In this document: positions 22,201 through 57,554 of the stretch, piece by piece | Layout: each line of letters begins with the position of its first letter | Numbering within the stretch: the stretch's first letter is position 1 | Source: Dioscorea cayenensis subsp. rotundata | Lineage: Eukaryota; Streptophyta; Magnoliopsida; Dioscoreales; Dioscoreaceae | Length of the DNA stretch: 64,000 nt | Assembly (NCBI RefSeq): GCF_009730915.1 | Contig: NC_052479.1 | Coordinates: forward strand, 1,426,001 to 1,490,000 | Reading direction: 5' to 3' | Made by a program: the position numbers and the translations under genes | Notes under the pieces: generated by a model | What the model was told of the DNA's origin: nothing | Database searches by the model: none | What the model saw: the letters and a program-made list of their open reading frames with translations, nothing else

Positions 22201-25200
22201 CTGATTTTGCCCACAAGAAAGAACAAGGTGCCTGTTGAAGATGATATTGGAGATGGCAATCGAAGGCCAGGACGGGTTGGAAGAGGCTGTGCTCCTGCAT
22301 CTTCTGCCTTGCCTGCCGCATTCGAGAAACTAGATAATAATTCCACTTTAAAACAAACAAGAAGTGCAAGAATTAGTTCTGAAAAAATTGAAAGGTGATA
22401 AAAATTCCTATTTTTGACCAATAATTTGTAACTATTTTATGCATTTAGCTCATTTGATTTTTTTTCCTTGCTTTAGCAGACTAGGTCGTCCCCCTTTCAA
22501 GAAATCATCTGAGCGCAAGTGCCATACCCGTCTAAAGCATTCAGTGAACAATGCATGCTTAGATGCTGTTGGTATGCCAATCAAGAATGTGACTTAATTC
22601 ATTTATTCTTCTCTACATCATTATCCATCTATATCACATCTGCAGGAGAATCAGATGATGACCATGAAGAGCTTTTGGCTGCAGCAAATGCGGCCTTGAA
22701 TGCAAGTAGGTATTTCAAACAGAGTTCATTGTTGTCTATGTCTGCTTTGGATTGTGAACAGAGAAATAATAGTGTATCTTGTGCAGAGCGTGCTTGCCCC
22801 AACTCTTTCTGGAAGCAATGTGAGCCCATCTTTGGTTTATTCTCTGTGGAAGATATAACATATTTGGCACAGCAGGTAATGATGAGGTTATAAGAATTTT
22901 TGAAGTTATCCTCAAGCATTTTTTTTCCAGGTTATTTTATTTTAATCTGTATCGGCAGATCCAGCCTGTAGATGATGAGATTTCTGCTAGTAGGTCCAGT
23001 ATGTATGTGGAAAATAGTGGGCAGAGCCTGAAGGTATATGCTTCTAAACTTTGTGTGTGTGTGTGTGTGTGGCAGCTTCTTCCAAAAATTTTGTGTGTGG
23101 CAGAATCTTCCAAATATTGAGAATATTTTATTCCAATTGTCACATGGTAGAACACCTCATGATCTTGGGGTGAATTCTTTTGTAGTCTTTGTACGGGTTC
23201 CTGGAAATCTTTGTCTTTGCATGTGCAAGCACCCAGATGGTTTTTTTAACAGTCCAGATCACTGAGCCTAGATGCTTTGACAATTGACAACCATGTGATT
23301 TTGTTAAAGAATCTATTGTTTATTTCTGTTAGTTGCCTGCTTTAAACATTGCAAATATGTAATGAGCTTGTTATGTAAATTTAGCACAACTGTTCTCTAT
23401 TCTTCAGGATGATTGTGGACACATTTCACTGCCATCAAAATCTGCCCTTGGGTGTTTGGATGATCCTGTTTCTATGTCAAATGGAAGTATCTTGACTTCA
23501 GGCGAAAGCAACATAAAAATCAACAGTGAAATAAAACGAGATGAGCCTTTATTGGAGCAGTTAGTAAGTGGAAAAGGCATTCAAAGTGGCATTTCAATTT
23601 GCCAAGCTCTTCTTTCAGCTATTATTGAAGATGAAGATGTTGAAAATTTCTACTGTGACACTAGTACATCAGAGGAATACTCTTACTCAGATGCTTATGG
23701 ATATCGATCTGAGGTTGGTACAAAGTTAACCAAAGGGTTTTCATTTGCTTTCATCTAACGACTTCCAAACTGCTGACATCACTCTTATTAATGGCTACAA
23801 GGTTCGCAATTGGATGTTCCATGAGGAACCACCACAAGACAAATTGGAAAGTAGTAATGGCTTGCAAGACACAGGACCCAGATCCAGGCTTGGAAATTCA
23901 CTTGATGATTTTTTCCCCTGTGGCACAGTGTCCCCTGACATTGCATGCACTGAATTCCAGTATAACCGGATGAGCATCAATGATAGGATTCTTCTGGAAC
24001 TGAGTGAAATTGGTCTCCACCCAGAGCCAGTGGTATATATCTTTCCAAAACATTCCTTTATTTTGGAAATATAATATTCCCCCACATTTGATCAAATTTC
24101 TTTATCGTTTAAGTTCTGGTTTTATTTATGCTTAAGATAATTGTTAATAACTCTGGTCTAGTACTTGCACACTATCTAGGTGCTATCAACCATTGTATGT
24201 ACTTTCCATTATGTTGGTATTATGAAAGAAGTCTACCATGCCTCGTGAAACTATTGAGATGGTATGGTAAGTGACCATGGCTTGTGCTTGCACATTATCT
24301 TGGTGCTAATAATTATGACCTAGCTTGCATTATCTAGGTATTGCAAAAGGCAAGACTCTATTTGAAACCTTTGATCTGTGTTGTTAATACCTCGTTATCT
24401 ACCTGGAGTCTGTTTTTATGCAGCATATTGAGCTTCAAGGTTTGCCAAATCATCTTTCGTTTATGTTTATTGACCCAAACGTCATATGTGGCCATATTTT
24501 GGTTTTGTTACACATAATTGCGCTTGTTCAAGCATTTATGTTTCATTCATTCCTTAAATTAATTTGGGTGCAAGCCTTTTCCTATGTTTCATATTTACTA
24601 CATTCTCTTCCACACAGCATGTGTTGAATATGATATAGTAATATTATTTTCTAACTCTGCAAAGGCTACTCCTTCTCAAGTTCTCATCTGATGGTCTAGT
24701 AGATTATTGCCAGTTTTACAGCATATTGTGATCTTATTGCCAGTTTTACTGCATATTGTTATCATGAAGCACATTTTCACTACTAGCATCCAGAAATTCT
24801 ATTTAATTTCCTGCTTTTTTTTTTAATAATAATCTTCAGCCTGATTTGGCTCAAAGTGAAGAAGAAGATATTGGTGATGACATTACTAAATTAGAAGAGG
24901 CTTCATGAGCAGGTATTTCCTGTTCTTGTTGTTCTTCTTGCTCTTATTCTTATTTTATTTATTTTTTTTTTTTTCATTTGGTGTTCATTCTGGGTTGATT
25001 TTCCTTTGTTGTTTTGTTATAATCAGCTCTAAATTCCTACACTGTTGTAGTTATATGGTTCACATCATCATGCACCTTATGCACTACGCATTGACATAGA
25101 TGCTCATTATGATTGCCATTAAGGAATTTGTTGATGACATTATACCCTTAAGTTCTTTGAGGAACCTTATAACAGGTTCGCTATTTTTAACTCAAGTGCT

Positions 25201-27443
25201 ACTATCACAAATATTCTTCTCATCTTCCACCGATGCATTTACTGAAATCTAGGATTAAGGCTTCTCAATATCAATCACTTGCAAAAAGTTGCTTTGTGAT
25301 TTTTGCTGATATTCCCATTTGTTACTGTCTGCTCTGTTGATCTTTTGGTTAGCTCCTATTATGCTTGACTTGAAAATTTATGCAAGCAACATTTAGGAGT
25401 TGTGATCATTGGTATATGTTTCCTAGTGAACAATATAAATGATTTTAGAAAAATATGCTTTGCAAATAAATATTTTTCTCTCATTACAAAGGTTCGGAAG
25501 AAGAAAAGCTTATTACTCAATCTAGAGAAGCTTGTGATGGAGGCAAGAGGAGATCAAGAAAGGTATCAATCAAGTACTGCGTATAACTGCAGATTATGAA
25601 GTAGTATTGCTCTATGAAATTCATTGGGTTTCTCTTATAATTTGTTACTGAACTACTTGTTTATTTATGAATAGGAAACTTGAGCGTCTTGCGCTGGACA
25701 AACTTGTTGGGCTGGTGTATGACAAATATATGGTAATCAAAACTGTACATGCCTAGTTGTTTATCTACCTGTACATCAATTTATTGTATTTAGGGAATAA
25801 TAAATTTTGGAGAAGAGGGAGAGGTGTGGGAGGGAATGCTAGTTAATTATAGTTATGGTTCTTTGGTGTGTGGGAGTATTTGCTGGTTATAAACCTTATG
25901 GTTATGGTAGGCACAGCTAGGAATAAGGTCCAATCACCTGGTTTGGTGTCTTTCGGTTCTAATTTACTTCTATTTCTTTTTTTAATACCTACATTAGACC
26001 TTTTATATGAAAGGTTTCTTATGCTTCAAACAAGACACATTATCTATTTATTCCTGGGAATCCATTTGTCCTTTCTAAGATTGACTTTCGTTATGTACCA
26101 TGGTAAGATTTATTACATGCATTTCTTTCTGTTTGCACTTAAATGGGTAGCGTGTTTAATACTAAATTGCTCCTTCGGTTTGTGCTTGTACATGGAGTTG
26201 TCAATACAAGTCTGAATTTTAATTCCAACTTTCTGCTTTTAGACTGATTTAACGCAGAAATTTGTATACTTCACCATAGCCCTGTTATTAAGTCTTTTGC
26301 TTTATTAACTGATGATAGCTGCCCCGTGTGAAATTGAATTACAGGCTTGTTTTGGTCCACATGCTTCTGGTGGTAAACATGTGAATAAAAATACGAAGCT
26401 TGCCACGATGGCCCTGGTTAAAAGGACCTTAGCTAGATGTCAGAAATTTGAGAAGACAGGGATTAGCTGCTTTGATAAGCCTGCTTTTAAGGACATGTTT
26501 CTCTCTATATCTTCTCACAATGCTGACATGGAAAGTATGGACATTGCCATGGATGGTGAGGCCGCCAAGAGTTTTGCTTCAGCTCAACACTCACAAAGAA
26601 CTACGGGTAATTTATACCACTTCCCACTGAATATATGCCTTCTAGTGTTGTGCATCTGGAAAGGCAGTGTTTTTCTCCTTGCTGCTTATTCGGTATCTTT
26701 TTTTCCTTTTGGCATCTCTTTTTACAGATATTGGCACTTGTCTGGCCTCACAACCAGTGCAAGGGATGAATATGCTTGATAAGAGTTGTAACACTCTCCA
26801 ACCTATCAACCAATCATCAGAACAGGAATACGGTAAAGATGAGCCATGGTTGAGCAGAGTGAAGAGGAGGGAAGTATTACTTGAGGATGTAGTTGGTGGT
26901 AGTAGTAGCAACACTATACGACCCCCCACGGGCCTAGAAAGTTCTCTTGCAAGGGGTACAAAAGGGAAAAGGAGTGGAAGGGATAGAGGAGGGAAGGGGA
27001 GCAATAAGGACCCGGCATCTAGAACTGGTACACTTAAGGCACGACCGTCTTTATCTAATGTCAAGGGTGAAAGGAAGACCAAGGCCAAGCCGAAACAGAG
27101 AACTACACAGTTATCGGCTTCTGTCAATGGTCTCCTTTCCAGGAATACAGAGCAACAACCTGATACACTATTATCTTCTTCCGGCCACAAATCACAAGGA
27201 AAATTAGATGAGAGTACTTCGCTTTCGGATTCTGTCGGAATTCAGAAAACATCTGATGATGTCGAGGCTATTGAGCTGGGCCATTTGCAAATACCTGAAT
27301 TAGATGTTGACGATTTCACTGGTCAAGGACAGGATCTAAGTTCATGGTTGAACATTACGGATGATGACGCAATGCAAGACTTCGATTGTATGGGGCTGGA
27401 AATTCCTATGGATGACCTTTCAGATGTTAAGTTGATGATATAA
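19270..27443 (+). CDS. ADA3-like nuclear protein (Ser/Arg-rich, plant At4g29790/At2g19390 type), with two apparent frameshifts
   Basis: Exons: 19270-19685, 19975-20224, 20758-21059, 21153-21332, 21651-22394, 22480-22571, 22646-22875, 22959-23033, 23408-24032 (frame break inside), 24840-24912 (frame break inside), 25492-25562, 25675-25732, 26345-26606, 26728-27443. The product is large (about 1,200 residues), low-complexity, Ser-, Lys- and Arg-rich, with many nuclear-localisation-like basic clusters (KKRSRAAIS, RLKKKRSVIK). A conserved C-terminal part contains a charged helical segment (RKKKSLLLNLEKLVMEARGD), then YDKYMACFGPHASGGK and the end LEIPMDDLSDVKLMI. From memory, Arabidopsis relatives have been proposed as ADA3-like subunits of the SAGA histone acetyltransferase complex. 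I cannot verify that here. Frame breaks at about 23735-23741 and 24896-24902 interrupt the conserved C-terminal part (see findings). If they are real, the protein would lose its conserved end. Confidence 0.8.
22475..22480 (+). promoter_or_regulatory. tandem (NAGNAG) splice acceptor
   Basis: The acceptor of the exon starting near 22480 reads TTTAGCAG/A. Use of TAG (22476) gives Ser-Arg at the junction. Use of CAG (22479) gives Arg only. Both keep the frame, so the two mRNA forms would differ by one serine. Confidence 0.6.
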
Positions 27444-30400
27444 ATGCCGTTGCTCGTGTTCGATTTTTTGTAGCATACACTGAAGAAAGTATACCCAATG
27501 TTGCAGTCCGAGTCCGAGTAATTTCTCGCTATATTTATCCGTCTTCCGGCTTTTGAGAAGTTAATAGGGATCAAATCTCTGTGCTCTCTGTTTTTCTTGT
27601 AATTTTGTTCATGTGGCCACTGCTTGCAGAAATCTTTGTTTCTTGTTTTTCTTTCTTTCTTTTTTTTTTTTAATCTTTTTGGCAAACAAGGTGGTGGTGT
27701 AAATGTTTGGTCATGCAAGAGCTTTGTAAATACTTGATGCTGATTGACATTATCTCAATCAGTGAGTGTGGTTGTGACAATTGTATATACATTTTTGTCT
27801 CAAATAAAATGAAATGATATTTATCTTATTGGAATTGGATTCTTCCTTTGTGCAGATACATTTCTATGCTTTTCTTGATGTTGTCCCTTGTGTCAACATC
27901 CATCAACTTTATTACCTTCTTCTTGACTCTTTTTTTAGGCATACCTTTTTCTTTCTTGTTTCTTCATGTCAGCAACCTTTATTTCATAAAATGATTTCTC
28001 TTGGTGATTGGGTAAATTATATGAACATTCAGTTAATTGTTTGGACACTTTTATTTGAGTCCTTGTATTATAAAAAATATATTTTTATTTAAATTCCTGT
28101 TCAATTGAGTCATTAATACTTACACAATTAATAATAATATATAATTAATTAAAAATACACTGATGTTTATGTGGTATAATATAATAATATTATATAATTT
28201 CAACTTGAGAACATTATTAGACATAAATTGTATGATGTGTTATGTCACGTCACCCTTTTTATTGCCAACATGAGCAATTGGACATAGATCTAAAGTTAGT
28301 GATACACAATTGAATTTTTTTTTTTATAATTCATTTGACTCAAATAAGATTATTTCAATAGTTGGGTGATCATTTAAACAATTTATCTTTGTTTATTTTA
28401 ATATTTATTTATTTATCTCAATGATTAATAATTACTTTTCACTGGTTCTGCTCTGTGCCACTCTGATCCCTGATTGATGCATCAATTATTTGACACTTTT
28501 GTTGGGGACCCAGTTTTCCTCATTATTTAATTTACAACACTCATTGCCTCAAAACTTTATATCTTTGATTCCTTTCATACATAACTCATTTATTTATTAA
28601 GCTTGGTTTTATAAATAATAATAAAAAAAAACAATCATAAAAACTAAGGACTATTATTAGATCACTAGTGTCTATAATGCTTGCCATTGGTTTTCTTATA
28701 CTCCAAAAAACATATCCCTTTATATTTGAACTCTTCTTCTTTTAAATAAATAACTAAATTTGGTTTTAGATGACAATTCATTCAATCTTCTAAGTACAAT
28801 TTTATATCCCAAATGTGTGCACTTTTTACTTTCATGTGACATTCAAAAATAAATTAAAAAAAACACACACACACTGACACACACACACCTTGCTTGCTAA
28901 ATACAACAAAGACCCAATCATATGTGCATACATAAGAGAAAATTAATGAATTACCCTTTAGAATTTAATTTTAAAAATTTGACAAATTCGGTTATAGGTG
29001 ATAGAAAGCCAGTTAGTTTATTTATTTTGTTTTTTTTCAAACCCATTGGTGTTTTTAAAAATTACGAGCTCTAAATCAGTTCAAAGCAAATTACTTAACC
29101 TTATAAAAATATAAATCACTTGTGACTAGTTATTTTTTAATAAATAAAAATTTAAATAACACCAGATTTATATGAGTTTTTGTGATTTCAAGATCTAACA
29201 AAAATAAATAAATTTATTAAAGAAATTAATTAAATTAAATTTTGTTTAAAGAGATTGATAATTGAGAGAGAGAGAGAGAGAGTGTGTGTGTAAATGCTAA
29301 AAGAAAGTGAGGACATATATGATATATGTGGTTGAAAGTTGGATTAGATGGTGAAGCATTAGCCACAAATGCTGACCAAGAAAAGGTAGCATAGATATAT
29401 AATATTGGATACCCTTCCCATCATCTTGTCCATTTCTCCATCTCAATAATCATGTCCAAAGACATCTTCAAAAGACCATACAATATATCATGGACTTTAG
29501 TCATTATTAGAATGACTTTTCAAATTTGGTTTCATCTAAGTTCATTTCTATCAATTACCATCATCACTACAACTATTAACATTGAGTTTAAATAAAAAGC
29601 ACTCATATTCTGATAAAAAAAAACTAATTCTAATCTTAACTCAAATATAGTAAAGATAAAAATGTATTGAAATAGTAACTTCATACATGTGTAATTTTCT
29701 GATATGTAATTTATTCATATTTTCGAGAAAAAAAAAAACTCAATCATCATATAATCAAGTGAAAACCTTTTATACATAATTTATATTTTTAATAATCTCT
29801 TAATAGCAAAATATATCCATTTATTATTTTGATCTATATCTCTGGTTAAAGAAAATAGTAATAAAAAAAATATTTTATTAATGTTTGTGTCTAAAATAAA
29901 AAACACAAACTAACTCATTAGTAAATATTAATCTTATTACATTAAAAAACCTACAATACAATCTTCTAAAAATCATTTAAATATATTGTCATATCACCTT
30001 TTATTATGATATAAGATTAGGCAAAGAAGTTCGGCACATGAAATAAAAAAGGAGTTATTTTAGCCAACCAGCCATATAAAATTGACCTCTCTTTCATAAC
30101 CATGAACCATGTCATGTTATTATAAGTTCATACAAGATGAAAAAGACCAAAATGAACAAAATAGCATCCATACTTTAGCAGTTAAAATTAATATTTTTGT
30201 ACTTTAGAGTCCAAAACTAATGATAACTTCAACAGATCTATTTATTTCAACAATTACACACACAATGATCTAATGGCTCTCAATCATGTACTATTTAATA
30301 TTGTATAAACTATTTGTCACTGTATATAAATCAGTACTGTTATACACTGTCTGTCACTATACATATATATATATATATATATACATGAGTGCACACATAG

Positions 30401-30444
30401 ACATAAATGAGTTTGGAGACTAGTTTGATTTGGATAGGAATGAG
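27444..30444. other. intergenic AT-rich DNA, no gene seen
   Basis: The 3' UTR of the ADA3-like gene runs into about 2.5 kb of A/T-rich DNA. Simple repeats include a CA run at about 28865-28890 and an (AG)n(TG)n run at about 29266-29291. A (TA)n run (about 30360-30382) lies some 65 bp before the bHLH start codon. ORFs here are short, AT-driven and unlike known proteins. Confidence 0.7.
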
Positions 30445-30571
30445 ATGATGGAGGAGGGTGGAGAGATGAGGCAAGCACTAGCAAGTAGTAACTTTCCATC
30501 TGTGTACAAAGGCACTTTGATCCTTCCAAAGCCTTCAAACACTAATTGGGATCATCATCATCATCATCATC

Positions 30572-30612
<41 letters not shown>

Positions 30613-30801
30613 GCCTTGTTCAAAGCTTCTTCTTCTTCTTCTTGTAATTATTATCATTCTTATTACTCTTCTTCTACTTCATCTTCTGAAAGGAGTGCTT
30701 CTGCTTTGAGAGTTCATAGTTTGAATGAGAAGAGAAGGAGAGAGAGGATTAATGCTCATCTTTCTACTCTTAGACGTATGCTTCCTCCTCATGCTCTCAA
30801 G
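30445..30801 (+). CDS. bHLH transcription factor, first exon only (bHLH51-like; rest in intron/assembly gap)
   Basis: The exon starts at the ATG-ATG at 30445 (MMEEGGEMRQALASS) and ends at the donor AAG/gtattt after 30801, giving 119 residues. The N-terminal part contains a histidine run (6 His from CAT codons) followed by about 14 glutamines (all CAA), then a Ser/Tyr-rich stretch. The exon closes with the basic region and helix 1 of a bHLH domain, HSLNEKRRRERINAHLSTLR, followed by RMLPPHALK. The His/Asn-Glu-Lys-Arg-Arg-Arg-Glu-Arg pattern predicts E-box DNA binding. It most resembles the Arabidopsis bHLH51/bHLH30/TMO5-type group by the SLxEKRRRxRIN signature, and in that group an intron interrupts the loop. 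Helix 2 and the C-terminus are not visible between here and the gap at 31634, so the gene is truncated by the assembly. Confidence 0.85.
30572..30612 (+). repeat. (CAA)14 coding microsatellite (polyglutamine)
   Basis: About 14 perfect CAA triplets directly follow six CAT triplets inside the bHLH exon, encoding His6-Gln14. Pure triplet runs of this length are usually polymorphic between individuals. Confidence 0.9.
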
Positions 30802-31633
30802 GTATTTATTTCTCTAATATATATATATATATATATATATAGATTTGAAGAACTTAACTTTATATATATGGATCACACAAACAAATTAAAGGAGTTGATC
30901 TTTTAGTATGTGATTCTCTATTTGTCTCTTTCTTTTCATGTTTGTATAGTTTGAAGAAATTAAGTATATAAAATGGATCATGGTTCTTGAAAAGAAGACT
31001 TTGCATGATATAGTATGAAGAACTTAATAATAAGGCATGGCATAAACTCTATTATGTGTTTGGATTGAAGAAAGGGGATTCTTTTGTTCATTTCAATTAA
31101 TCCCAAATTAATTAGAAGTATTGGAAAGTCAACCAAAGTTTAGGATCCCAAAAATATGAAATTTTTGCACTGCTTATTTATGGATATTATTAGTAAATAA
31201 ATAAATAAAGCATAAAATAGAGATCATAAGAGTACAAGAATATGGGGATGACTTGAAGAAACATACAAGGTTTTGTATTGGTTCAACTAATCGAATTGAG
31301 TAGAACATACATTAAATATATAGAGCTTTGAGTATGTCCAATCATAAATATATATATAAATAGATACACGTAATGGTGACGTGGCAAGCATCTTATTTAA
31401 ATACATCTTAACAAACGCTTCATAATTATCCACATCATCTAATCTTATCTTCATCATTATATTTACAATCTAATCCCTTGCAAGTTTTATCAAATATTTT
31501 CTCTTGAAAAAAAAAGGTCATTGCATGATCTTCACCTCTAATTCATGATTTTTTTTTCCATATATATTATAATTTTATTTATTTGATTTAGTCCTTAAAT
31601 TTATTTTATTAAGGGCATGACATAGGCTTGATG
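30802..31633 (+). other. putative bHLH intron up to the gap
   Basis: AT-rich sequence starts at the donor at 30802, with a (TA)n run at about 30820-30841. No segment resembling bHLH helix 2 was found before the N-run. Confidence 0.6.
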
Positions 31634-32633
31634 NNNNNNNNNNNNNNNNNNNNNNNNNNNNNNNNNNNNNNNNNNNNNNNNNNNNNNNNNNNNNNNNNNN
31701 NNNNNNNNNNNNNNNNNNNNNNNNNNNNNNNNNNNNNNNNNNNNNNNNNNNNNNNNNNNNNNNNNNNNNNNNNNNNNNNNNNNNNNNNNNNNNNNNNNNN
31801 NNNNNNNNNNNNNNNNNNNNNNNNNNNNNNNNNNNNNNNNNNNNNNNNNNNNNNNNNNNNNNNNNNNNNNNNNNNNNNNNNNNNNNNNNNNNNNNNNNNN
31901 NNNNNNNNNNNNNNNNNNNNNNNNNNNNNNNNNNNNNNNNNNNNNNNNNNNNNNNNNNNNNNNNNNNNNNNNNNNNNNNNNNNNNNNNNNNNNNNNNNNN
32001 NNNNNNNNNNNNNNNNNNNNNNNNNNNNNNNNNNNNNNNNNNNNNNNNNNNNNNNNNNNNNNNNNNNNNNNNNNNNNNNNNNNNNNNNNNNNNNNNNNNN
32101 NNNNNNNNNNNNNNNNNNNNNNNNNNNNNNNNNNNNNNNNNNNNNNNNNNNNNNNNNNNNNNNNNNNNNNNNNNNNNNNNNNNNNNNNNNNNNNNNNNNN
32201 NNNNNNNNNNNNNNNNNNNNNNNNNNNNNNNNNNNNNNNNNNNNNNNNNNNNNNNNNNNNNNNNNNNNNNNNNNNNNNNNNNNNNNNNNNNNNNNNNNNN
32301 NNNNNNNNNNNNNNNNNNNNNNNNNNNNNNNNNNNNNNNNNNNNNNNNNNNNNNNNNNNNNNNNNNNNNNNNNNNNNNNNNNNNNNNNNNNNNNNNNNNN
32401 NNNNNNNNNNNNNNNNNNNNNNNNNNNNNNNNNNNNNNNNNNNNNNNNNNNNNNNNNNNNNNNNNNNNNNNNNNNNNNNNNNNNNNNNNNNNNNNNNNNN
32501 NNNNNNNNNNNNNNNNNNNNNNNNNNNNNNNNNNNNNNNNNNNNNNNNNNNNNNNNNNNNNNNNNNNNNNNNNNNNNNNNNNNNNNNNNNNNNNNNNNNN
32601 NNNNNNNNNNNNNNNNNNNNNNNNNNNNNNNNN
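31634..32633. other. assembly gap, exactly 1,000 N
   Basis: The run of N is exactly 1,000 long, so it is a scaffold join of unknown true size. Open frames spanning it are artefacts. It probably hides the remaining exons of the bHLH gene that starts at 30445. Confidence 0.98.
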
Positions 32634-33165
32634 GCTCACTTCAGAAATGGGGAGTTGGCACCACACTCTGGCATCTCACATGTTTTATAAGAGAAAGGGC
32701 TAAATTTAGAGAGGCAATGAATAAGAATGGTGAGAGGAGTTAGGAGAACCATCATTCATTGTGCCTCCTACCTAATTAAGGTAGTTTGAAATGGTCCTCC
32801 TTGCATATATATATATATATAATTTAAATAGTCATTTAATGATAATTTTATTAGACTCAAAAGTTGGGTGTATGATTTTTCTATTGAATGCAACAACATA
32901 AAAAAAAAATTCTTATAATTTTGGAAAAAATTTATTTAAAAAAATTACATCTATTATTGGTTCTTCAAGTGGTGGATCTAATTATTTAATTTTGATCTTT
33001 TATGTTAAAAAAAAATGTTTGGTTTAGTTTTTCAGTATTTAAATATAAATATTTAATTTGATCTTTTATTGCTTTTAGTTAATCATGCTGCATAAATCTT
33101 TTAAAGTGTTGTTGTGTACAATTTCGCTATGAAATTTCTTGTAATGACAATTTGAGCTTACTAAT

Positions 33166-33203
<38 letters not shown>

Positions 33204-33888
33204 CTTAAAAATACATATTCCACGCCACCACATAAAATTAGCTTTTGTAGTGTCACATAACTAACAAAGCATAACAAAATGATCAAATTGAATCTTTTGA
33301 ATTTCAGCCACAACAAATATTGTTTTATTTATAAAAATTAAAATAATCATTCACATTTCTAGAAGAACTAAATAGTGGCGATTTAACTAAAAAGTAAATT
33401 TACAAAAAAATGATAATAAACAATAGAGGGTGGTTGGCATTCAACTTGAATACTCTACTCAGTTGGTCCACACTTAATTACTACTTAAATAAAACATTGA
33501 TTTTTGGAGTCACCACCAATATTTCTCATCTTCTTTATGACTTCCTCAAGTACAAATCACAAATACACAAAATCCCACATCAAGATTACCTTATCATGTT
33601 AAGCTCTAAAAACAAAGAGCACAAAAGACATTGAAATGCAACAACAATCCAATCACTACTCACAATAAGACATACATGTACATTAAATTAAAGATGGTTG
33701 ATAATTAAGGACTGATAAAAAATGAAAAAGAAAGAGTGAGGAATCTTCACAAGTGAACCAACATTGCAAGTGGGAGAGCAATGAGCTCAAGGCATTCAAT
33801 GAAACGAAAGAGGAAGACCAAGTTGAAGTTAATTAATAGTACTACTTGCAAAGCACATTTCATTAAACCACCATGTCTTCAACCTTGA
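32634..33888. other. intergenic, no gene seen
   Basis: After the gap there are about 110 bases of less AT-rich sequence with a short open frame to TAG at about 32741-32743 (ending MNKNGERS). It could be the tail of the bHLH gene, but I do not recognise it. The rest is AT-rich, with a long (TA)n run at about 33171-33201. Confidence 0.5.
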
Positions 33889-34295
33889 TTAATTGCTAAG
33901 TTCTTCATGATCTTCTCCAAGTGAAGCTCTGCAAAGAGGGCAACTTGACTGACTACTTAGCCAAAGATCAACACAATCAGGATGAAAAGCATGCTTGCAA
34001 CTAGGCAACACCTTCACCTTCTCACCATTAACCAAATTTGCCAAGCAAATTGAGCACTGAGACTCATCTGTTGATGATCTTGCTTGGTGACTCTCAATTG
34101 GGAGGTTCTTGATGGTGTTTGCATCAAGCCCAGACATTGAAAGTAGAGAAGTTGTATTATTTTGCCGATCAGAATATGACTGACATGCCCAGCGAATGCA
34201 GAAATAGATCAAGGCAAAGAAAAGAGGATAACTGTGAGGATGAAGAGGACGATGGCATGGAGGCTTCGGCCATGGATCTGCAAGTTCTTAGTCAT
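33889..34295 (-). CDS. ATL-type RING-H2 finger E3 ubiquitin ligase (small), frame broken in the membrane segment
   Basis: ATL proteins are membrane-anchored E3 ligases. Downstream of a frame break there is a clear GLD box (SMSGLDANTIKNLPI). A complete RING-H2 follows: CSICLANL, then LPSCKHAFHPDCVDLW, then CPLCRASL, with all eight Cys/His ligands and the conserved Pro and Trp. Upstream, in another frame, the ATG at 34295 opens MTKNLQIHGRSLHAIVLFIL followed by a hydrophobic stretch. These two frames join into one transmembrane helix if the A-run at 34220-34223 (T-run on the coding strand) has five bases instead of four. The corrected ORF is 408 nt (135 residues), a normal size for short, intronless ATLs. 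As sequenced, only an open frame lacking its natural start encodes the RING. Confidence 0.82.
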
Positions 34296-34592
34296 CAAAC
34301 TCTCCGTTGTGCAAATGAAACATCTGGCTTGCTGTAATTTTTCCAAAGTGACAGATCAAAGCTCTCAATATATATATATATATATGAAAACTATAAAAAA
34401 AAAATAAATGCCAACCAAGAAAAAAGATAAGGGAATTAGCTGGAGACTTCATTAAAGCATATGAATAATATCGTTCAAGAGAACAAACAAAAGAAAGACT
34501 GGGACCATTATGATCATCAAAAGAAGGTATAGGTACCCCACTAAACATACATATATATATATTCAAAACAAACTTATCAACTACTTGCTAAG

Positions 34593-35108
34593 TCATACAT
34601 AACTTAAATAAGAAAGCATGTCTTCTTCTCCTTGAGCTGTAATGGAGTAGTAGACTAACTGCTGCTGCTGCTGCTGTTGATGATGAGAAGGAAGAACATT
34701 AGGGTTAGGGTTAGGATTAGGGTTGAGATCTGTGTAATTAGCATGAGAGTTTTGAGGGAGATGATCAGTAGTGGACATGGCAGCTTGGTGAAGCCAAATC
34801 TGAGCCTTGAGGAACTTGACATAATGGATGGCCTCTTCCAACATTGTGACAGTGTCCATCTTGCTACCACCTGGAACAAGGGACTTGAGAATACGGAACC
34901 TGTCACTTATCCTGTGCCTTCTCTGCCTTGCTGCAATGCTTTGTGGATCAGTGGATAGTTTCATCCCTACTTTCTTACTTCCCTTCTTGTTCTTGATGTC
35001 CTTCTTGTTGTTGTTAGCTGGAGGAGGAGAAGAAGATGAAGAAGATGGATATGGATATCCAGTTTCAGAGTATGAAGCCATGTTCATGAAGTCATGAACT
35101 GCATGCAT
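34593..35108 (-). CDS. LAX1: LAX PANICLE1 / REGULATOR OF AXILLARY MERISTEM-type bHLH transcription factor
   Basis: This is a single-exon gene of 171 residues starting at the ATG at 35108 ([17 protein letters not shown]). The central bHLH domain (about residues 55-110) reads [20 protein letters not shown], then [20 protein letters not shown], then [20 protein letters not shown]. That matches rice LAX1, maize barren stalk1 and Arabidopsis ROX very closely, including the atypical basic region. Those factors act in boundary regions to start axillary meristems and so control branching; a similar role is inferred here. After the domain come an Asn-Pro repeat encoded by telomere-like hexamers (34699-34724), a Gln run (about 7) and a divergent tail. 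The gene lies on the same strand as the RING-H2 gene, about 300 bp upstream of it, with no evidence of shared regulation. Confidence 0.92.
34699..34724 (-). repeat. telomere-like (TTAGGG)n tract in coding sequence of the LAX1-like gene
   Basis: About four hexamers, one with an A substitution, read AACCCT on the coding strand and encode four Asn-Pro units. The hexamer differs from the heptamer TTTAGGG usual in plants. Confidence 0.85.
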
Positions 35109-35900
35109 GTGCACACATCCCTCTGATATATAGCATTCAAGTCAGACAACCAATCTCTGGCTCAAGATATGGCCAGGGTTTTAGGGTTAGGGTTAGAGTT
35201 TTAGGATTAGGGTTAGGGTTTCTTCACCACCTTCTTCTCTGAATATATATATATATATATATAAATGTGTTTCTCTTTTTCTATACATGCACGAAGAGAA
35301 TGTTTGGAGATATGGAGTTTGTCCTGCCACCTTTGTCCTTGAGGACATCTTGACCGTCCATTGATGATCAAAGTTGGATGATCAACGGTTAGGAAGGGAT
35401 CAACTTAGCTTGTCAAAGCTGTGGCTGACGTGTGGTGTTGGGTGTGGGGTGAAACCCTAGCAAGATGAGCTTGTCCCTTTTTTTCACCATTAAAAATGGA
35501 GATAAAGATGAAGGAGAAGAAGAAATTAAACAAGTGTTTTCTTGAGTACTTGGTGTCCCAAAAGAGAAGGAATGGAGGGATAGGGAAGGAGGATTGAAGT
35601 GACCCTTTGATAAGATGAGGCACAGGGTATACCCTTAGAAAATAATAATAAGAGATTTTCATATGGTGTTTAATGCAGATGGTGTCAGTGATGGGGAGGA
35701 GTAGTGGTTGCCATTTCATGTCAAAATATGGCCTTTTGATTTGTTTCTTGACACACGTGTGTGTTTCTGTATGTGTGTCAAACTTTGTTTGGTGCACACG
35801 CGTGTTCACCAAATCCTCATCATTATACATTTATACATACATGAAATGTTTTTTAATAAATAGTTTGATTAAAAGTGATCTAGTTAATTAATGTTAACTT
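35109..35900. promoter_or_regulatory. upstream region of the LAX1-like gene
   Basis: The region contains telo-box-like repeats, a (TA)n run at about 35242-35262 and a moderately GC-rich stretch with no coding signal, presumably promoter. GTGTGTGT-type repeats occur near 35750-35780. Confidence 0.5.
35175..35221 (-). repeat. telomere-like repeats / telo-boxes upstream of the LAX1-like gene
   Basis: Mixed TTAGGG, TTTTAGGG and variant units lie 67-113 bp upstream of the LAX1-like ATG. On the gene's strand they read AAACCCTAACCCTAA. AAACCCTAA is the plant telo-box, known to recruit TRB proteins and Polycomb at developmental genes. A regulatory role here is only an inference. Confidence 0.7.
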
Positions 35901-35919
35901 GTGTTGGTATATTAGCACC

Positions 35920-37760: not shown

Positions 37761-37973
37761 GTCCCTTATGTAAAGTATTCATGTTTTTGATGAAGAGACG
37801 GGTACGAATCTCAACCCACACAAAGTGAGGGCACAAGTGTATTGAGGTATTAATTCTATGCATGTGCATGGTCTTAAAACATGCTTACCCACATTTCATA
37901 AATAAACAAATAAATAAATAAATGATGCAATTGATTGTTTATCTTGAAAATTAAAAAACTTTTCGGCGAGGTC

Positions 37974-40155: not shown

Positions 40156-40190
<35 letters not shown>

Positions 40191-41149
40191 TTTTTAAATA
40201 TTTCAACTTTAACAAATATGTACAAAAATTTTATGTTTATTTGGACTAGTTTCAAGTGTTTGATTGTAAATATATTATAATAGAACTCATTTTAATTAAT
40301 TATCAATTGAAAGGCACTGGCGCTATTGTTTTATTGTTATGATCTTTAGTACATTATCTAATTAGTAAAGAAAAAAAACGAACAAGGCATGTCATCATCT
40401 CGGCCACATTCAAATTGGATGCATCATGAACAAAAAGACAGGACATCAGCTCATCTTTTTTTTTTAAAAAAAAAAAAATATTTATTGTTATTATTAATTT
40501 TTAATCTTTATGAAATATTTGATGGCAACTCATCACCTGACTAACTTGCCATATGATCTATCATTAGCTTTGCATTTATTTTAATACATAATCAAATATA
40601 CAAATTTAAACTACATTAAAAGCCAAGCATAGAAATTAAATGAATCCAAATTAATGTGATCATCTTTGAATTATCACGCCGACACACTTAAGAGAATATG
40701 TTGAACTTCAAAAGAAAACATATCTAATCAGTAAGACATGGTGGTGGTTGAAGTGGTTTTCTCTTCATTGATAGGTCATCTTTAATTTGTATTAACTTAT
40801 TTGCTTCCTTTTTTGTTTTATATATACACACACACATACATGTTTATTAATTTCAACCTTTTTTAATGCAAGCAACCTCTTATGGTCAATTAGTGAATCT
40901 AAGCCTTATGGACTACTTCCATTAACTTCTTAGACAATGACTCAATTATAATTTCCATTCATTCTAGAATAGTACGTAATGTATTCTTTACCTCATTGTT
41001 TGCTAGATATATGTACATATATATATATATATATGAGATAAAAATACATATGAGTTTTGAATGATGTGTAATATAGAGATAAAAGAAGGATATATATATA
41101 TATATATGTGGAATTAATAATACAAGAAAAGAGGCTTTCATAGATAGAT
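39481..41149. other. intergenic AT-rich DNA with many (TA)n runs, no gene seen
   Basis: Notable (TA)n runs lie at about 40157-40186, 41016-41034 and 41090-41108. Short open frames are composition-driven. Confidence 0.7.
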
Positions 41150-42490
41150 TCAAACATCTCTAGGGTCTATGAAAAGAGTGGGAGGAGGAGGTGCCTTAGT
41201 CCAATCAAAGGAGACCATGTCTTCACTTGCACTGATGAGTTTTTTCATGCACAATAGATCTTCTGAACATGATAAGAACTTGCAATGAGGAATATAATGC
41301 CTAAGTTTATCGAAACCTCCGATTTCGGTAACGATAACCTTGCAATCTTTTTCGGTCTTCACCGCCAAGTTATGCACATAGTTGCACAAGGAGTTCACTA
41401 GTTTTGATGCTAATAAACCTTCACCATGAATTCCATACATGAAATAGAAGCCAAATGGAGTGAAAATATTAGGTATTGATGGAACCCTAATGCAAGGTTT
41501 TAGAACTCTACTTACCAACCTTGAAACTTCTGCAAGTAGAACACAAGCACAATGAGCTCTGCCAACTCTTAACTTGAAAACATCAGCACAATTCCACACA
41601 CTTAACATTGCCCAACTTGTGGGAATGCTACTTGATGATCTATGATGATCATCATCTTCTAAACCATGCCATGACTCTCCTTGTGCATGAGCAATCCATG
41701 TCCCTAAACTCAACTTATTCGATAAAACCCGATCGATGTCTTGAGGGAAGAACTCTGCAGAGCTCAAGAATTTTCTGTAGATTTTTCGGCTTGTACTTGA
41801 GTAAGCTTCTCTATGATTACATTTGAAGGTATATGAATTGCATGTTGCTTGACAGGGTTCACAAGAATCATCGGCGATCGGAACTTGGAGTAGCCAAGCT
41901 TATCGACAAAGAGCTTGATCGATGCCTTGTTCTTCTTCTCCGTTGCCATGTATGCGTATTCGACTAGATTGGCCTATGAACCATTCTTCCATTTTACATA
42001 CTAGAAGCAATCCAATTCCTCTTCTTCTGAAAAGAGGAGAAACTCTTAGACCTAAGATATACCCTACCTTTGCTTCACCTTCATTAGGGTTAGGGTTAGG
42101 GTTAGGGTAAAGGTTGCCAACTGTGACAATTTTGATAGAACCTCTAATAATTCCCACCATCTCTTCTCCTAATTCAGCAACCTATGTTTAAGCCATCAAA
42201 AGAAGTACAAAATTAGTAAAACAGTATAAAGAAAACTATTGAAAAGATGATCAACAGATTGACCGATCGACTTATAAGAAGAAGAGGAGGAGAATTACCA
42301 TCATTTTATACAAAGGGCTGTTTCGAATTCGACATAGCGGATCGCCTAATGTATCGGTGAAGAGAAAAGGACTCTTCGTCGATCCTATTTCACACTTCTT
42401 CTCAAGTTCTTCCACTTTTGCTCTATCTTTTCTTCTGTCAAAGCTTCTTATCTTCACTGCCAAAGCTACTTCTTGTTCATCTGAAGACAT
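41150..42490 (-). CDS. HOOKLESS1-like GNAT N-acetyltransferase, two apparent compensating frameshifts
   Basis: Two exons: 42490-42299 and 42181-41150, with donor ATG/gtaatt and acceptor AACATAG. Arabidopsis HLS1 acts in apical-hook growth and light/ethylene/auxin responses and is reported to affect histone acetylation. Visible conserved parts are LFTDTLGDPLCRIRNSP, the acetyl-CoA-binding motif LGLRVSPLFRRRGIG (RRxGIG), KLGYSKFRSPMILVNPV, SSAEFFPQDIDRVLSNKLSL and, at the end, FIDPRDV. The start at 42490 (MSSDEQE) is preferred because upstream codons are non-ATG. Two breaks disturb the frame: near 41971-41974 (one extra base) and at the T-run 41782-41786 (one base short). Their net effect is zero and the corrected protein has about 407 residues, matching the family. 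An Asn-Pro repeat encoded by TTAGGG hexamers lies just before the acetyl-CoA motif. Confidence 0.88.
42084..42108 (-). repeat. telomere-like (TTAGGG)4 tract in coding sequence of the HLS1-like gene
   Basis: Four perfect TTAGGG units encode PNPNPNPN on the minus strand, in a position where relatives have a variable loop between the beta-strands of the GNAT fold. Confidence 0.88.
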
Positions 42491-42610
42491 GAGTTTGCAC
42501 TTCAAGTGATGCCCTAATTAATTGCTTTACTAATATCTCACACTAATGCTATAGCTTATCAATTTCATATACATATATATATATCTATTCCATTCATTAG
42601 TCTATGCATG

Positions 42611-42643
<33 letters not shown>

Positions 42644-50386: not shown

Positions 50387-50529
50387 TCCTCTGAATTTTG
50401 ATTTTTTATTTTTTTTTGGCCTTTTGCTGCTATATTATTTTACTTCCAAAACCCTAAAGATATAAAGAATAGGGATGACTTGTACACGACTTCATAGTTC
50501 TTGTATTCAACTGGTTCTTGTGAACTTCC

Positions 50530-52132
50530 TTAAAGAGCTTGATTCTCGAGGTCTCGATGAGAGGTGCCATTCGGCATACTGCTGTGTTCTGTTTCATGTG
50601 TATGTGTTGTTGAATAAGCTATTTCTCCATGAACTGCATCATCGCCGATTTGCAGCTCTTCTTCCGACATCCTCAAAGGTATAAAAAATCTAATGACAAG
50701 CAGGATGATGGATGTGGCCACAATGTTCCAACCCACAATGAAGCAGGCACCAACAAGCTGTTTCAGGAATTGAACACCGCCGGGTCCACCGTAGAAGGCT
50801 CCCTTGGAGTTAGTTACGGGTAGGAACATGCTTGAGAGATCAGGGTGTGCAAAGAGACCGGTCATTGCCCCGCCGAGGATTCCGGCAATGGCATGGGTGT
50901 GCAGGATGCCAAGAGTGTCATCAATTCTCTGTAGCAACTTTGACTTTTTGTTCAGGTACATCATTGTGTACCATGGTACACTACCAGAGACTATCCCCAT
51001 CACAATGGCTGCCCAGCTCTGCACAAGACCTGAAAGAAATAGAGAACATAATGATGGTGAAGTGAATTTAGTTTTTTTCTCTGCATTCAAACTAATGATG
51101 TTTACCTGCAGCAGGAGTTATACAAACAAGTCCGGTAATCATCCCGTTGATGGCTCCAATGAGTGATGGCTTGCCGAAGATGGCAACATCCCAGCAAGTC
51201 CAGATCAAGAGGCTGGTGGCAGCGCAGATATGGGTGTTCAGTACTGCAATAGATGAGTCAACGTTTGCTGAGAACGGATCACCGCCATTAAAACCTGTCC
51301 ATCCCATCCATAAGATCCCGGCTCCGGCGAGCGTCAGAGGGATATTGTTCGGCTGGAAGTCTTCCCTGTCCTTCTTTTTATCCTCGGGCCAACCTACCGC
51401 CAATAACAAACAATCAGGATAAGTAAATCTTAGCAAGTTTTTAGTCTCCGAGAAGAGTTAGAAACTAAGCAAGTTACCCAATATGCTGCAGTGAATCCTG
51501 CTGCTCCAGAAGCTAAGTGAACAACATAACCTCCAGAGTAGTCCATGATGCCCCAGTGGAAGAGGAAGCCACCACCCCAGATACTAAAAGCTCCTACAGT
51601 GTATGAAAATGTCAGCCAAAGTGGCACAAACACCATCCAAGCCTTGACACTCATCCGGCCAAGAACAGCTCCTGCAAGTAGCATCACCGTTACCGCTGCA
51701 AAGGCAAACTGGAAGAATACCATGGAGGCCATTGGATAGAATGGTTGCACTGCTGCAGTTTCGACACCACCGGTTGAATTATAATGCAGGGTGGCAGGTA
51801 GTAATGCCTGTGGTACAAGATAGTCTTGTGCCACCGCCAGTCCCTGCCCTTCCCCAAAACGGAATAAGTTTCCGGCCAAAGGCCATCTTGTAGGCCCAGA
51901 GGACCCAGCAGGGCATGACAGCAGCGAAGGCATAAAGAGCCATGAAGGCAGAGTTTAGTGCCCATTTCCTCTTGACAATACCTGCATACAAGAGCACAAG
52001 GCCTGGCATGCCTTGCATGCCGACTAATGCAGCGGAGATCATCTGCCATGCGTTGTCGCCCTTGTTTAGCCAGTCCGGCACCACGGTCGATGTGTTGCTG
52101 CCTAGGTAGGCCACTGGCACAACGGAGGCCAT
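50530..52132 (-). CDS. AMT2: ammonium transporter, AMT2/AMT3 (MEP-like) subfamily, with two apparent frameshifts
   Basis: Exons: 52132-51478, 51393-51106, 51029-50530. This is a plasma-membrane ammonium channel/transporter of the Amt/MEP/Rh family. Conserved segments occur in order: [139 protein letters not shown] and [20 protein letters not shown]. The sequence resembles plant AMT2/AMT3 rather than AMT1 proteins. Exon 1 is 655 nt, where 654 is expected (one extra base near 51841-51855). Exon 2 is 288 nt, where 289 is expected (one base short near 51381-51385, in the VGPRxKKKDRE segment). With both corrected, a protein of about 480 residues results, normal for the family. As sequenced, translation would stop after the first three or so membrane helices. 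Confidence 0.9.
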
Positions 52133-53507
52133 GGCTGAATGCAAGGTATGCTTCTCTGAGGCCCTGGACAAACGCCTTGTGTGTCTTCATCTATAAACAC
52201 TATGTTACGTCAAAGTCAATGAGGGAAAAGAACAAGAGATTCATTGAGGGTTTGAATCCTATTCCTGCCTATGAGGAATGAGAATCTTTTGAAGATTCTA
52301 AATGAACGTTTCTTTTTCTAGAATTTAGAACCAGAAATAAGGTATTAAAGTAACACCAACAACCAAGTTTGAAGAGTCACTGAGCTGGTATTTATATTCA
52401 ATGTGATCACACACAGCCACACACATTTTCCATGAAAAATGATTCGATCTTTTGTAAGACTAGTCAGAGAAGGTTTGGAAGAAATTTGAATGTGAAATGT
52501 GGAAAAAATTGTAGCAACGTTGGTGTTCGATTAAGATTTTGCTTGGCCACAGAATTAGATCGTTTTTATTCAACGGTCAGTAGAGTTTCCTTGTAGTACA
52601 TTCACTGCTTACTGTGTCCCCTTAACTTATCAAACTTAATTAGCCTTGCTTCTATTCGTTGATTCTTCAAGAACAATAACAAAAATGTTATTTTCTTGTA
52701 ACCTATCAACCATGAAAGGAGGACCAAAAAATCATTGACTAACATGCAAGCTGTATATTGTAAGGAAAAAAAAAAGTCATCTTTGTACATGAGTGTAAAA
52801 TTATAATGCATCTAATGATGTTCAAACGTCCTAAGGGAGGACGAGGGTGTGCAGCATTAAAGATCAAGGTCATCTTCATACGTTTCATTATTATAATTTT
52901 CTAAGAAAATTCTATGCTGAATAGAAAGTGGAAGGAAGAGGGGGGAGTTAGCTATTGAAATAGTAGACCTTTCTTTATATATTGCTTTCACTCCTACTTT
53001 TTTATATGCATGCTTTTCAAATAGGAACTGTTGACATAGTGCTTCTCAGTTAACTTTGAAATGGTATTTGCTTGCAAAAAATAATGCTACAAATTCAGAG
53101 CAGTGAAATCTTTGAATATGGTGTAGAAAGACGAAAAGAGCACCTAAGCATAACGTCCCCTAAACTTTAAAGCCAAATGGCAGATAATTGACTATTGAAG
53201 GTGGATGAAATTGGTCATTGACTTTGCAAGCTAACTTAGAAAATTTGAGGAAAAAAAAAAGTTATTGGATATGATAGGACAATGTACAAAACATTATTCT
53301 AAGGTTGCTGATGAAAATAAAAACTTTTTTAGAGTAATTCTATTCCAAATTGGACCAGAAAGATTTTAACAGAAGATTACCAACCCAATAGAGTAGTCAA
53401 TGAACTGATTGGTAATCATTCTGAAGCTTTTCATCAGCAAAATCAAACAAAGAAAAGCAGGGGTGCATCTGAATTAAATTGCCCGATGAATTATCAGAAA
53501 TGCATAC
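52133..53507. other. upstream region of the ammonium transporter, no gene seen
   Basis: This is presumably promoter and leader of the minus-strand AMT gene, then unremarkable AT-rich DNA. No exon of the neighbouring kinase relic was found here on either strand. Confidence 0.6.
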
Positions 53508-53659
53508 CTTGCACATATCTGATCGAAGACAACTGATGCTATGAGTCCTGCAATGATCACTGCAATAATGCTTTGGGATTGTGTGTTCCGAATCGTCTTC
53601 CAGTTATATCTGCAACTCCTGTTGCCAGATTGAATAGGTAACAATGCGGCCAATGCCCA
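53508..53659 (-). pseudogene. relic exon of a farnesol/phytol kinase (FOLK/VTE5-like)
   Basis: On the minus strand, one frame reads FNLATGVADITGRRFGTHNP and another continues SIIAVIIAGLIASVVF. Together these resemble the signature of the FOLK/VTE5 kinases: Gly-x-Ala-Asp-Ile-x-Gly-Arg-Arg-Phe-Gly, then Asn-Pro-x-Lys-Ser, then a hydrophobic helix. These are membrane enzymes that phosphorylate farnesol or phytol. The pieces are in different frames and join if the AAA near 53572-53574 had one more A. Good splice-like borders remain (acceptor GTGCAG at about 53660, donor AAG/gtatgc at 53507). The usual GDG before the ADI motif is degraded, and no other exon is visible for kilobases on either side. 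It is therefore called a relic. Family assignment is from memory of the motif. Confidence 0.5.
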
Positions 53660-55513
53660 CTGCACGCCGGAGAAAATTTATTTGAGTTAATACTGAGAAA
53701 TTCCACTGATTTTTCTATCTACTTATTAATCCATGTTTTTCTAAATATTTAGAAGAACCAGTGCATGGACCAAGCAAGTTCGTCCCACCTTAATGGTTTT
53801 GACCCTGATAGTTAAAGGAAATAAAATTACAGGAAGAAAGCTGGGGATACACAAAAACCATAAGGTAAGATGAACCGATTCACGCTAATTCTTCTTTCAA
53901 GCAAATATTTTGACAAACACATACGATCCATGAGTTAGATTCTGCAAGAAGATTTTGGTAGCTAATGTTAGAACAAGAGCATAATGTAGTAGTCATTTCA
54001 AGAGCTTCCTAGGCAGTTAGAAATAAACATTATGAAAAATGAGAACTTTTAACAGTAATGCCATGAAACCTGAGAAACATAATTAAGGGTGCAGATTGAT
54101 AACCAGAGTTTCATTCTTCCATAGTCCAACTAGAAAACCAAGCATTCCTGGAGCTCTCTCTGCAATTATGCCATTCCAGAACTTAATACAATAAAGACAG
54201 CCACTTCTCTTATCTCATTCTGTGGATAATGAAAATTAAGAAATCAAATTGTGAGTTACCTGATAAAAAGACCATAGACATAAATGCACAAGCTTGTCTC
54301 ATGAATGTATAGTTTCTCAAAGTCCCTTACTAGTTATTGATCAATTCTTTTTTTTTTTATAATAATTCCTGTTTCCATGATACTTTCTCTATCCAAAACC
54401 ACCAAAATATCGTCTTTCCTACGATGCATTAATTTCTCAGTCTGCATACTGTTGTTTTTCCCTTTTGATTCCAAGATCACCACTGCTTATAATTCTACTT
54501 AAACAAACAACAAAATTTCATTGCATACATGAATTTGTTTGTAATACAGAAAACTGTATCTTAAACTGATTGTCTACTTTGTCTTCTTCAACAAAATGAC
54601 ATATGTTTGTCGTCATTAATTGATCAAATCATCCAATGATTTGTTTCATTCCATAAGTTACTAAATCTAATCTAATTCTTTATTAAAAGTTGGACCTTTT
54701 CTTCAAACCAAACAGCTTGATCCTTAGTAAACAAAGATCAGTACAGCATGTGAAGAAAGCACAGTCCAAGGAATGCCCACATTCCATGATTAATTAGTAT
54801 CCTCATTCCCAAACAACATTATGTCTGAGATTACAACAAATATATATTTATATATTACAAAAGGACACGTGTCAAGCATTAATTGGCAAACAAGGTCTAT
54901 GGGCCCTGATTAAACTAAAGACAAGGTTTGTTTTGAAGCCTTTGGACTCATCCGGCGGTTTGCCGCCCATGAGCACATCACCGGCCCATAAACCTCTCCC
55001 GGCCCTCCACGTGGCGCACTCCTATCACTCCCCCCGTTTCCTTCTCCTCTACCACCCCACTAGTATATCCACTTTATAATTTATTTATTTATTTATTATT
55101 TTTTTCATAAACACCCCTAAACCATCCAAACCTGATTTTACATATATATATATATATATATAAGCCACTGACGACAAAATGATCTATTGATATAATGATA
55201 TTTAGATCTTTTAAAACTTTTCACAAGTAGTAAAAATTTAAATTATGAGTGATGATATATTTACGCGAGTGGTAGTGATTGTGATACAGATGGTTACTAG
55301 TCTACCGTATATACTGCAGACTGACTTTGCTCTATTAAAGACATGCATACCCCTATTTTTTTTAGGGGTTTAATAGTTCATCTAGATAAATATAAATATA
55401 TATGAAAAAAAAAATAAAAAAAAAGAGCATAATTTATTTGTAATAAAAAATTTTATACGTGCATAAATTAAAAAAAAAAACAGAGGAAGTGGAGGAGGGA
55501 ATACCTCAACGTC
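53660..55513. promoter_or_regulatory. intergenic and promoter region of the U-box gene
   Basis: The first 1.2 kb is featureless AT-rich DNA. From about 54950 a GC-rich patch appears, with an inverted repeat GGCGGTTTGCCGCC and the palindromic G-box CCACGTGG at 55007-55014, about 500 bp before the ATG. G-boxes bind bZIP/bHLH factors and often mark stress or light control. The factor here is unknown. Confidence 0.5.
55007..55014. promoter_or_regulatory. G-box CCACGTGG upstream of the U-box gene
   Basis: A perfect palindromic G-box (ACGTG ABRE core) sits in a GC-rich patch 500 bp upstream of the U-box start codon. A single site without expression data is weak evidence of function. Confidence 0.45.
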
Positions 55514-57554
55514 ATGGACGCCGGCGGGATGTCTGGGTTCCTGCCGACGGCGGCGCTGGTGGAGTCTCTCGTGCACACCGCCCGTGAGGTCGCCGCGATG
55601 GAGGAGCTCCCTTTCGTCCAGATGCGCAATGTCTCGTCGGCTGTCCGGCGCACGAAGCTCCTCTCATCGCTCTTCGATGAGATCCGGGACGCCGGCGGGC
55701 CGTTGCCACCGTCTTCGATTCTTTGCCTCACTGAGCTTCTCTCGGTGATTCGGTACACCAAGGGTTTGATAGAATGCTTGGCCGGAGGGAGCGCGCTGTG
55801 GAGCTTGGTGCAGGCGGAGCCCATAGCGCGCAAGTTCCACGCCGGCGCGAGGGAGCTCGCGCGCGCGCTTGATATCCTTCCGCATAGTCTGATTGGCTTG
55901 TCCGGCGATGTCAGCGAGCAAGTGGAGCTCCTCCATAAGCAAGCGAAGCGCACGGAGGTGTTCCTTGATCCGCGAGAGCTCCGGATGAGAGACGAGCTTC
56001 TCCAATTGATGGCCATGGAGCGGAGCAAAGCCGGCGGAGATCGGAAGAAGATGGAGGAGATCATGTTCAGCATCGGGTTGCGGAGCGCGGTGGATTATCA
56101 AGAAGAGATATCGAGATTGGAGAATGAAGCTCGGAAACAGGCCGGCACCGGCGGGATCGTCGCCGTCTCCAACATCAACATCCTTATATCCCTCGTCTCC
56201 TCTGCTGGCGAGGTGATTCGATCTCCGGCGGTGCATCATCTCCGGCCATTGCTCTCCTTCCCGAGAGGCCTTAACCGGTCTGTATCCACCCCATCGTCGT
56301 TCAACTCCATGGTCTTCAACGTCCCCGATGAGTTCCGCTGCCCGATCACCCTCGATCTTATGCGAGATCCGGTGATCGTCGCCTCCGGTCACACCTACGA
56401 TCGGAGCTCCATCGCCCGGTGGATCAACTCCGGCCACCATACTTGCCCTAAAAGCGGTCAAAGGCTCATACACATGGCGCTCATCCCCAACTACGCACTC
56501 AGGAGCTTGATCACCCAATGGGGCAAGGAGAACAACGTCCCCTCCTCCTTCTGGGACCGTGACGCCGGCGCCGGCGGGCGGTAGCCATGGGAGTTCCACT
56601 GCCAATGCAGACAAGGTGTTCGATCATTTGTCTGCAACAAGAGCAGCTACTGAAACTGTGAGAATGACTGCAGAATTCTTGGTAGGAAAGCTGGCAATGG
56701 GTTCTCCGGAGATTCAAAGACAAGCTGCATACGAGCTGAGATTGTTAGCGAAAACGGGAATGGACAACCGACGAATCATCGCCGAAGCCGGCGCCATTCC
56801 GTTCCTAGTCACATTGCTCGGCTCTCGCGATCCCCGGACACAAGAGAATGCGGTGACTGCATTGCTTAACCTCTCTATCTTTGACAACAATAAGGTTCTT
56901 ATAATGGCTGCTGGTGCTCTTGATTCTATCATCGAAGTGCTTTGCTCAGGAGCAGCTATGGAAGCTCGAGAGAATGCAGCTGCGACGATCTTCAGTTTGT
57001 CAATGGTGGATGAATGCAAGGTGACGATTGGGACGAGGCAAGCGGTGATAACAGGGCTCGTTGATTTGCTCCGTGAAGGGACGGCAAGAGGGAAGAAGGA
57101 TGCAGTTAGTGCATTATTCAACATTGCTGTTTATAATGCGAATAAGGCACGGATAGTAGCGGCCGGAGCGGTGGCGGTGCTGGTTGAGCTTTTGACTGAT
57201 GATAAGGCGGAGATAACGGATGATGCGCTTGCGGTGCTTGCACTTCTTTGTAGCTGCCCGGAAGGGTTGAAGGAGATGGGAGAGAGGAGATGATTGGTGC
57301 CATTGCTGGTTGAGCTGATGAGGTTTGGGTCTGCAAAGGGGAAGGAGAACTCCATCACTCTTTTGCTTGGATTGTGTAGAGATGGTGGGGAGGAGATGGG
57401 GAGAGCATTGTTGATGAATCCAAGAAGTGTTCCTGTTCTTCAGAGCTTGGCTGACAATGGATCTGCAAAGGCTAGAAGGAAGGCTGATGCTCTTCTTAGA
57501 TTGCTGAACAGATGTTGCTCTCAGGCATACACCACTACTTCTCATGTTGGATGA
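55514..57554 (+). CDS. plant U-box E3 ubiquitin ligase with ARM repeats (PUB16/17-like); one frameshift and one in-frame stop
   Basis: This is an intronless gene. The N-terminal U-box-associated helical domain (about residues 1-250) begins MDAGGMSGFLPTAALVESLV. The U-box (about 270-345) follows: VPDEFRCPITLDLMRDPVIV, then ASGHTYDRSSIARWI, then CPKSGQ. The U-box recruits E2 enzymes, and the ARM repeats bind substrates. ARM segments include QRQAAYELRLLAKTGMDNRR, TQENAVTALLNLSIFDNNK, RENAAATIFSLSMVDECKV and GKKDAVSALFNIAVYNANKA. The frame breaks near 56570-56581 in a GC-rich run (one extra base). After that the frame stays open except for TGA at 57291-57293, beyond which the same frame gives a last ARM unit (GSAKGKENSITLLLGLC). 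Total length is 2,041 nt, and removing one base gives 680 codons. The first half is GC-rich with G/C-ending codons, unlike its surroundings. It ends 584 bp from the convergent SAM50 gene. Confidence 0.88.

Follow-up and report, generated by a model that had tools for sequence, protein, structure and literature searches.

Small insertions and deletions persist in long-read genome assemblies, as a plant paper states (PMC8290290), and for the sorghum Tx430 nanopore assembly it is suggested that leftover short indels and mismatches might cause false stops, frameshifts and falsely truncated genes (PMC6242865). According to a further paper, errors in long reads can shift the frame or introduce premature stops and thereby pseudogenize genes; it cites one hybrid assembly in which indel errors affect 2,746 or more human genes (PMC12007338). 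This literature on long-read indel error provides general support, none of the papers found being tied to the assembly considered here.

The window, that is the whole stretch of DNA analysed here and the reference for all coordinates, comprises 64,000 nt of Dioscorea cayenensis subsp. rotundata (NC_052479.1:1,426,001-1,490,000, forward strand), and its gene content indicates plant nuclear DNA. Five of its genes, otherwise well preserved, are interrupted, which is most likely a warning about assembly quality and not biology.

Frame breaks in five genes

Coding pieces amounting to 17,371 bases were placed for 12 genes. These are hand-picked, recognisable open stretches that cover only part of the exons, so that any break in the other exons would go unnoticed, and a gene is called clean on the strength of its placed pieces rather than of all its exons (three pieces each for SAM50, the receptor kinase and RanBP1). 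Frame breaks were found by means of the reading frames, and the peptide pieces flanking each break were mapped back to the DNA. Gene names that lack Pfam or PDB support are presumed ones, some of them taken over from an earlier note on this sequence; HLS1 and ADA3-like are such names, both assumed from that note.

The eight frame-breaking indels and the U-box stop described in the earlier note are present in the sequence (Table 1). The ADA3-like, HLS1-like and ammonium transporter genes hold two breaks each and the RING-H2 and U-box genes one each, while the ninth lesion is an in-frame TGA in the U-box gene and not a frame slip. Mapping of the peptide pieces located seven of the eight breaks, and exon phase the remaining one. 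At seven breaks the two frames adjoin within one exon, either 1-2 bases apart or overlapping by 1-4.

Table 1. Affected genes, their lesions and the scaffold gap, in window positions.
Feature	Position	Strand	Remarks
ADA3-like gene	19270..27440	+	10 exon pieces, 3,450 nt placed
ADA3-like frame break 1	23738..23742	+	T4 run in one exon; pieces 23408-23740 and 23742-24032 in different frames
ADA3-like frame break 2	24896..24900	+	adjoins GG; exon 24840-24912, 73 nt
Scaffold gap, run of exactly 1000 N	31634-32633	.	inside affected segment
RING-H2 gene	33892..34295	-	PF13639, 53.7 bits
RING-H2 frame break	34221-34224	-	flanking pieces overlap by 4; 4-base run at 34220-34223
HLS1-like GNAT gene	41153..42490	-	Acetyltransf_1 match
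HLS1-like break	41958/41960 (at 41959)	-	frames adjoin
HLS1-like break	41782-41786	-	within T5 run
Ammonium transporter, three exons	50533..52132	-	PF00909; structure matches
Transporter break	51843/51845 (at 51844)	-	frames adjoin
Transporter break	51375-51379	-	within T5 run
U-box/ARM gene	55514..57551	+	U-box 82 bits, profile 1-71/73; ARM_PUB match
U-box gene frame break	56578/56580 (at 56579)	+	frames adjoin
U-box gene in-frame TGA	57291-57293	+	stop codon

The tested domains, those of the transporter, HLS1-like and U-box genes, run on through the lesions. Compared separately with PF00909, the four pieces of the ammonium transporter, whose two lesions lie 468 nt apart, cover positions 1-69, 83-170, 174-270 and 270-399 of the 399-position profile with 34 to 84.4 bits; read across the breaks, the gene yields a single match to 1-399/399 with 277.4 bits and aligns over its whole length with structures of ammonium transporters, the best being an AmtB (E = 1.9e-62). 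For the HLS1-like gene (lesions 176 nt apart) the Acetyltransf_1 score rises from 31.8 bits as the sequence stands to 43.3 bits when read across, and the end of the profile is reached (31-116/116). Once the stop in the U-box gene, 712 nt from its frame break, is passed, the ARM_PUB match extends from profile positions 19-213 (93.4 bits) to 19-294 of 308 (115 bits). The RING-H2 break sits in a hydrophobic stretch ahead of the RING domain, and because the RING score barely moves on reading across (53.7 vs 54.5 bits), this break is called from the reading frame. The same holds for both ADA3-like breaks, since two of the ten pieces of that gene were scanned against Pfam and gave no match, and a search for relatives (contaminating plant DNA copies) returned none among 55 pattern matches in a genome-contig collection and none among 8 pattern matches in a viral-contig collection. 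The call of the second ADA3-like break (near 24898), with about 5 codons following it, depends on the phase of its exon with the hand-read neighbouring exons.

Measured exon lengths in the transporter agree with those given in the earlier note (655 nt for exon 1, 288 nt for exon 2). Its wider statement that each correction restores exon phase is borne out for these two exons and for the 73-nt ADA3-like exon, the lengths that were compared with phase. The further break it had proposed in a "kinase relic" at 53.5 kb was not counted; 41 residues read across gave no Pfam match. By its motif, this minus-strand stretch (53500-53700) resembles a piece of a phytol/farnesol kinase and not a protein kinase, and it is perhaps a true old relic.

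All eight breaks fit a change of one base, as had been claimed, but each could also be a two-base change of opposite sign, and the stop codon falls outside such a description. Taken as one-base changes, five breaks have one base too many and three one too few. Runs of four or more make up 4.7% of the placed coding bases and hold four of the eight breaks, an excess with P = 0.0003 that is somewhat overstated, as a break beside a run is indistinguishable from one inside it; these four, all in A/T runs of 4-5, comprise all three breaks with a base too few and one with a base too many. The earlier note places most breaks in runs or short repeats; half of them lie in runs of this length. Such a preference for runs is as compatible with natural slippage as with sequencing error. 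All six introns checked, which belong to the transporter, HLS1 and BAG genes, begin with GT and end with AG, and neither larger indels nor lost splice edges were seen in the genes checked.

Distribution along the window and the scaffold gap

The lesions affect five unrelated genes with 1-2 breaks each. Within the segment 23.7-57.3 kb, the edges of which were chosen after seeing the data, eight breaks fall in 7,907 nt of placed coding sequence (1.0 per kb). To the left of the first break there are none in 6,989 nt (P = 0.0008 and 0.016 under the local and the uniform rate, respectively), and to the right of the last break none in 2,475 nt (P = 0.08 and 0.29 in the same order). The eight indels span 7,192 of the 17,371 placed coding bases, for which P = 0.011 at a uniform rate (0.0099 including the stop). 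The clustering reported in the earlier note is thus supported at its left edge and modestly by the span, but its right edge is not significant. Clathrin, RanBP1, SAM50 and the receptor kinase, said to be clean outside the segment, indeed show no break in their placed pieces. Clathrin, to the left, is the longest clean gene; its joined placed exons give one continuous 1,478-residue match to mammalian clathrin, with small gaps, four residues at most, in the portion of the alignment inspected. BAG and LAX1, described as clean between broken genes, likewise carry no break in their placed pieces, but that the genes inside the segment (HEC/LAX1-like, BAG and a second bHLH gene) are clean is no more than chance would give (P = 0.15). 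In a comparison by eye, broken and clean genes could not be told apart by their third-position GC.

The affected segment flanks the scaffold gap on both sides and extends 24.7 kb past it; the gap itself is absent from the earlier note's finding. The bHLH gene starting at 30445 has just the first half of its HLH domain ahead of the gap (profile 4-29 of 53), and a search with one loose motif in 30801-34300 gave no match to its continuation, so that the next exon of this gene may lie in the gap. The same gene contains a (CAA)14 array at 30571-30612 that encodes a poly-glutamine stretch. Short telomere-like repeats of the TTAGGG type occur at 34699-34710, 35180-35218 and 42084-42107, and those in the HEC-like and HLS1-like genes fall in coding pieces, where they encode Asn-Pro repeats.

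Origin of the lesions

We consider it highly probable that the breaks are consensus errors left over in a draft assembly built from long reads (or gap-filled). Such a draft would retain small indels, in the simplest case of a single base, about one for each kb of coding DNA; coverage or correction would probably be poor in the segment on both sides of the gap, and the genes in the plant itself would most likely be intact. The one-base fits, the continuous domains, the GT/AG introns and the 1000-N gap inside the segment support, short of proof, under-polished long-read error, which the earlier note had named as the simplest reading. Together with the run preference and the one or two breaks per gene they make residual error the best reading, and it is also favoured by the single continuous match of clathrin to the left. 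From the observed breaks, contexts, domains and gap we infer the technical cause, as well as low coverage and the sequencing method. Several points count against it. The TGA in the U-box gene is a lesion other than a frame slip, substitution errors being rarer after correction; homopolymer slips are also common as natural mutations; the segment runs farther past the gap than a simple contig-end effect suggests; and the regional contrast is modest (P = 0.011). Shortened homopolymers, a signature of old nanopore data, were sought in the window and not seen: A/T runs reach 15 in the window and 14 within the segment, so homopolymers are not plainly shortened as such data would predict.

One sub-type of residual error, tentative and on the doubtful side, would have clean contigs joined by fills from a few uncorrected long reads with patchy errors. 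The close spacing of the lesions within the HLS1-like, transporter and U-box genes, the clean genes between them and the one gap left unfilled are in keeping with such patchwork filling; however, clean genes between broken ones are expected at one uniform local rate, and patchwork filling is inseparable here from general under-correction. Mutation in the plant would instead mean that the segment belongs to a haplotype that has recently begun to decay, such as one copy of a region that does not recombine or is maintained clonally, with five genes truly mutated and another copy supplying the function. We regard this as unlikely, although natural indels favour runs too and one stop beside eight indels could arise by neutral decay: with an assumed 3 to 10 substitutions per indel, and 3.4% of random substitutions in these genes leading to a stop, 0.8 to 2.7 stops are expected (P of one or fewer, 0.80 to 0.24). 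Because decay predicts this many, the single stop does not decide between error and decay. What speaks against decay is that each break fits one base, that larger indels and lost splice edges were not seen in the genes checked, that the tested domains continue across the lesions, and that decay would have had to set in jointly in five unrelated genes and to be equally early in all of them. The marks by which pseudogenes would be told, namely erosion of domains, loss of splice sites and indels of larger size, were not found in the transporter, U-box, ARM_PUB and GNAT domains or the six introns. There is little chance that at least five neighbouring genes without functional relation really lost their frames on one haplotype block, nearly simultaneously and in the very recent past, as might be the case where recombination is absent or propagation clonal, so that the segment would capture block-wise gene loss as it begins. 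Were the lesions real, gene-block decay would here be seen in its very first stage, which is rare. That the frame changes are unrecognised short introns or alternative splice sites is scarcely credible: no support for this was found at the breaks, the tested domains continue straight through them, and at seven of the eight the adjoining frames are too close for an intron.

If residual error is the cause, as is likely, the local gene models will be wrong: five genes would be annotated as truncated, split or pseudogenic, and no loss of function called in the region should be relied on before reads are mapped.

Comparison with known systems

Young plant pseudogenes that follow duplication have frame breaks and a premature stop in common with the genes described here. 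They would be expected also to have suffered larger indels, loss of splice sites and erosion of domains, whereas none of these was seen in the parts of the present genes that were checked. In residual long-read assembly error, small indels, often in runs, break the frames of otherwise intact genes, and the same is found here, the cause being judged from the sequence. The false stops and frameshifts that the authors of the sorghum Tx430 nanopore assembly suggest may arise from residual indels resemble the present breaks (PMC6242865).
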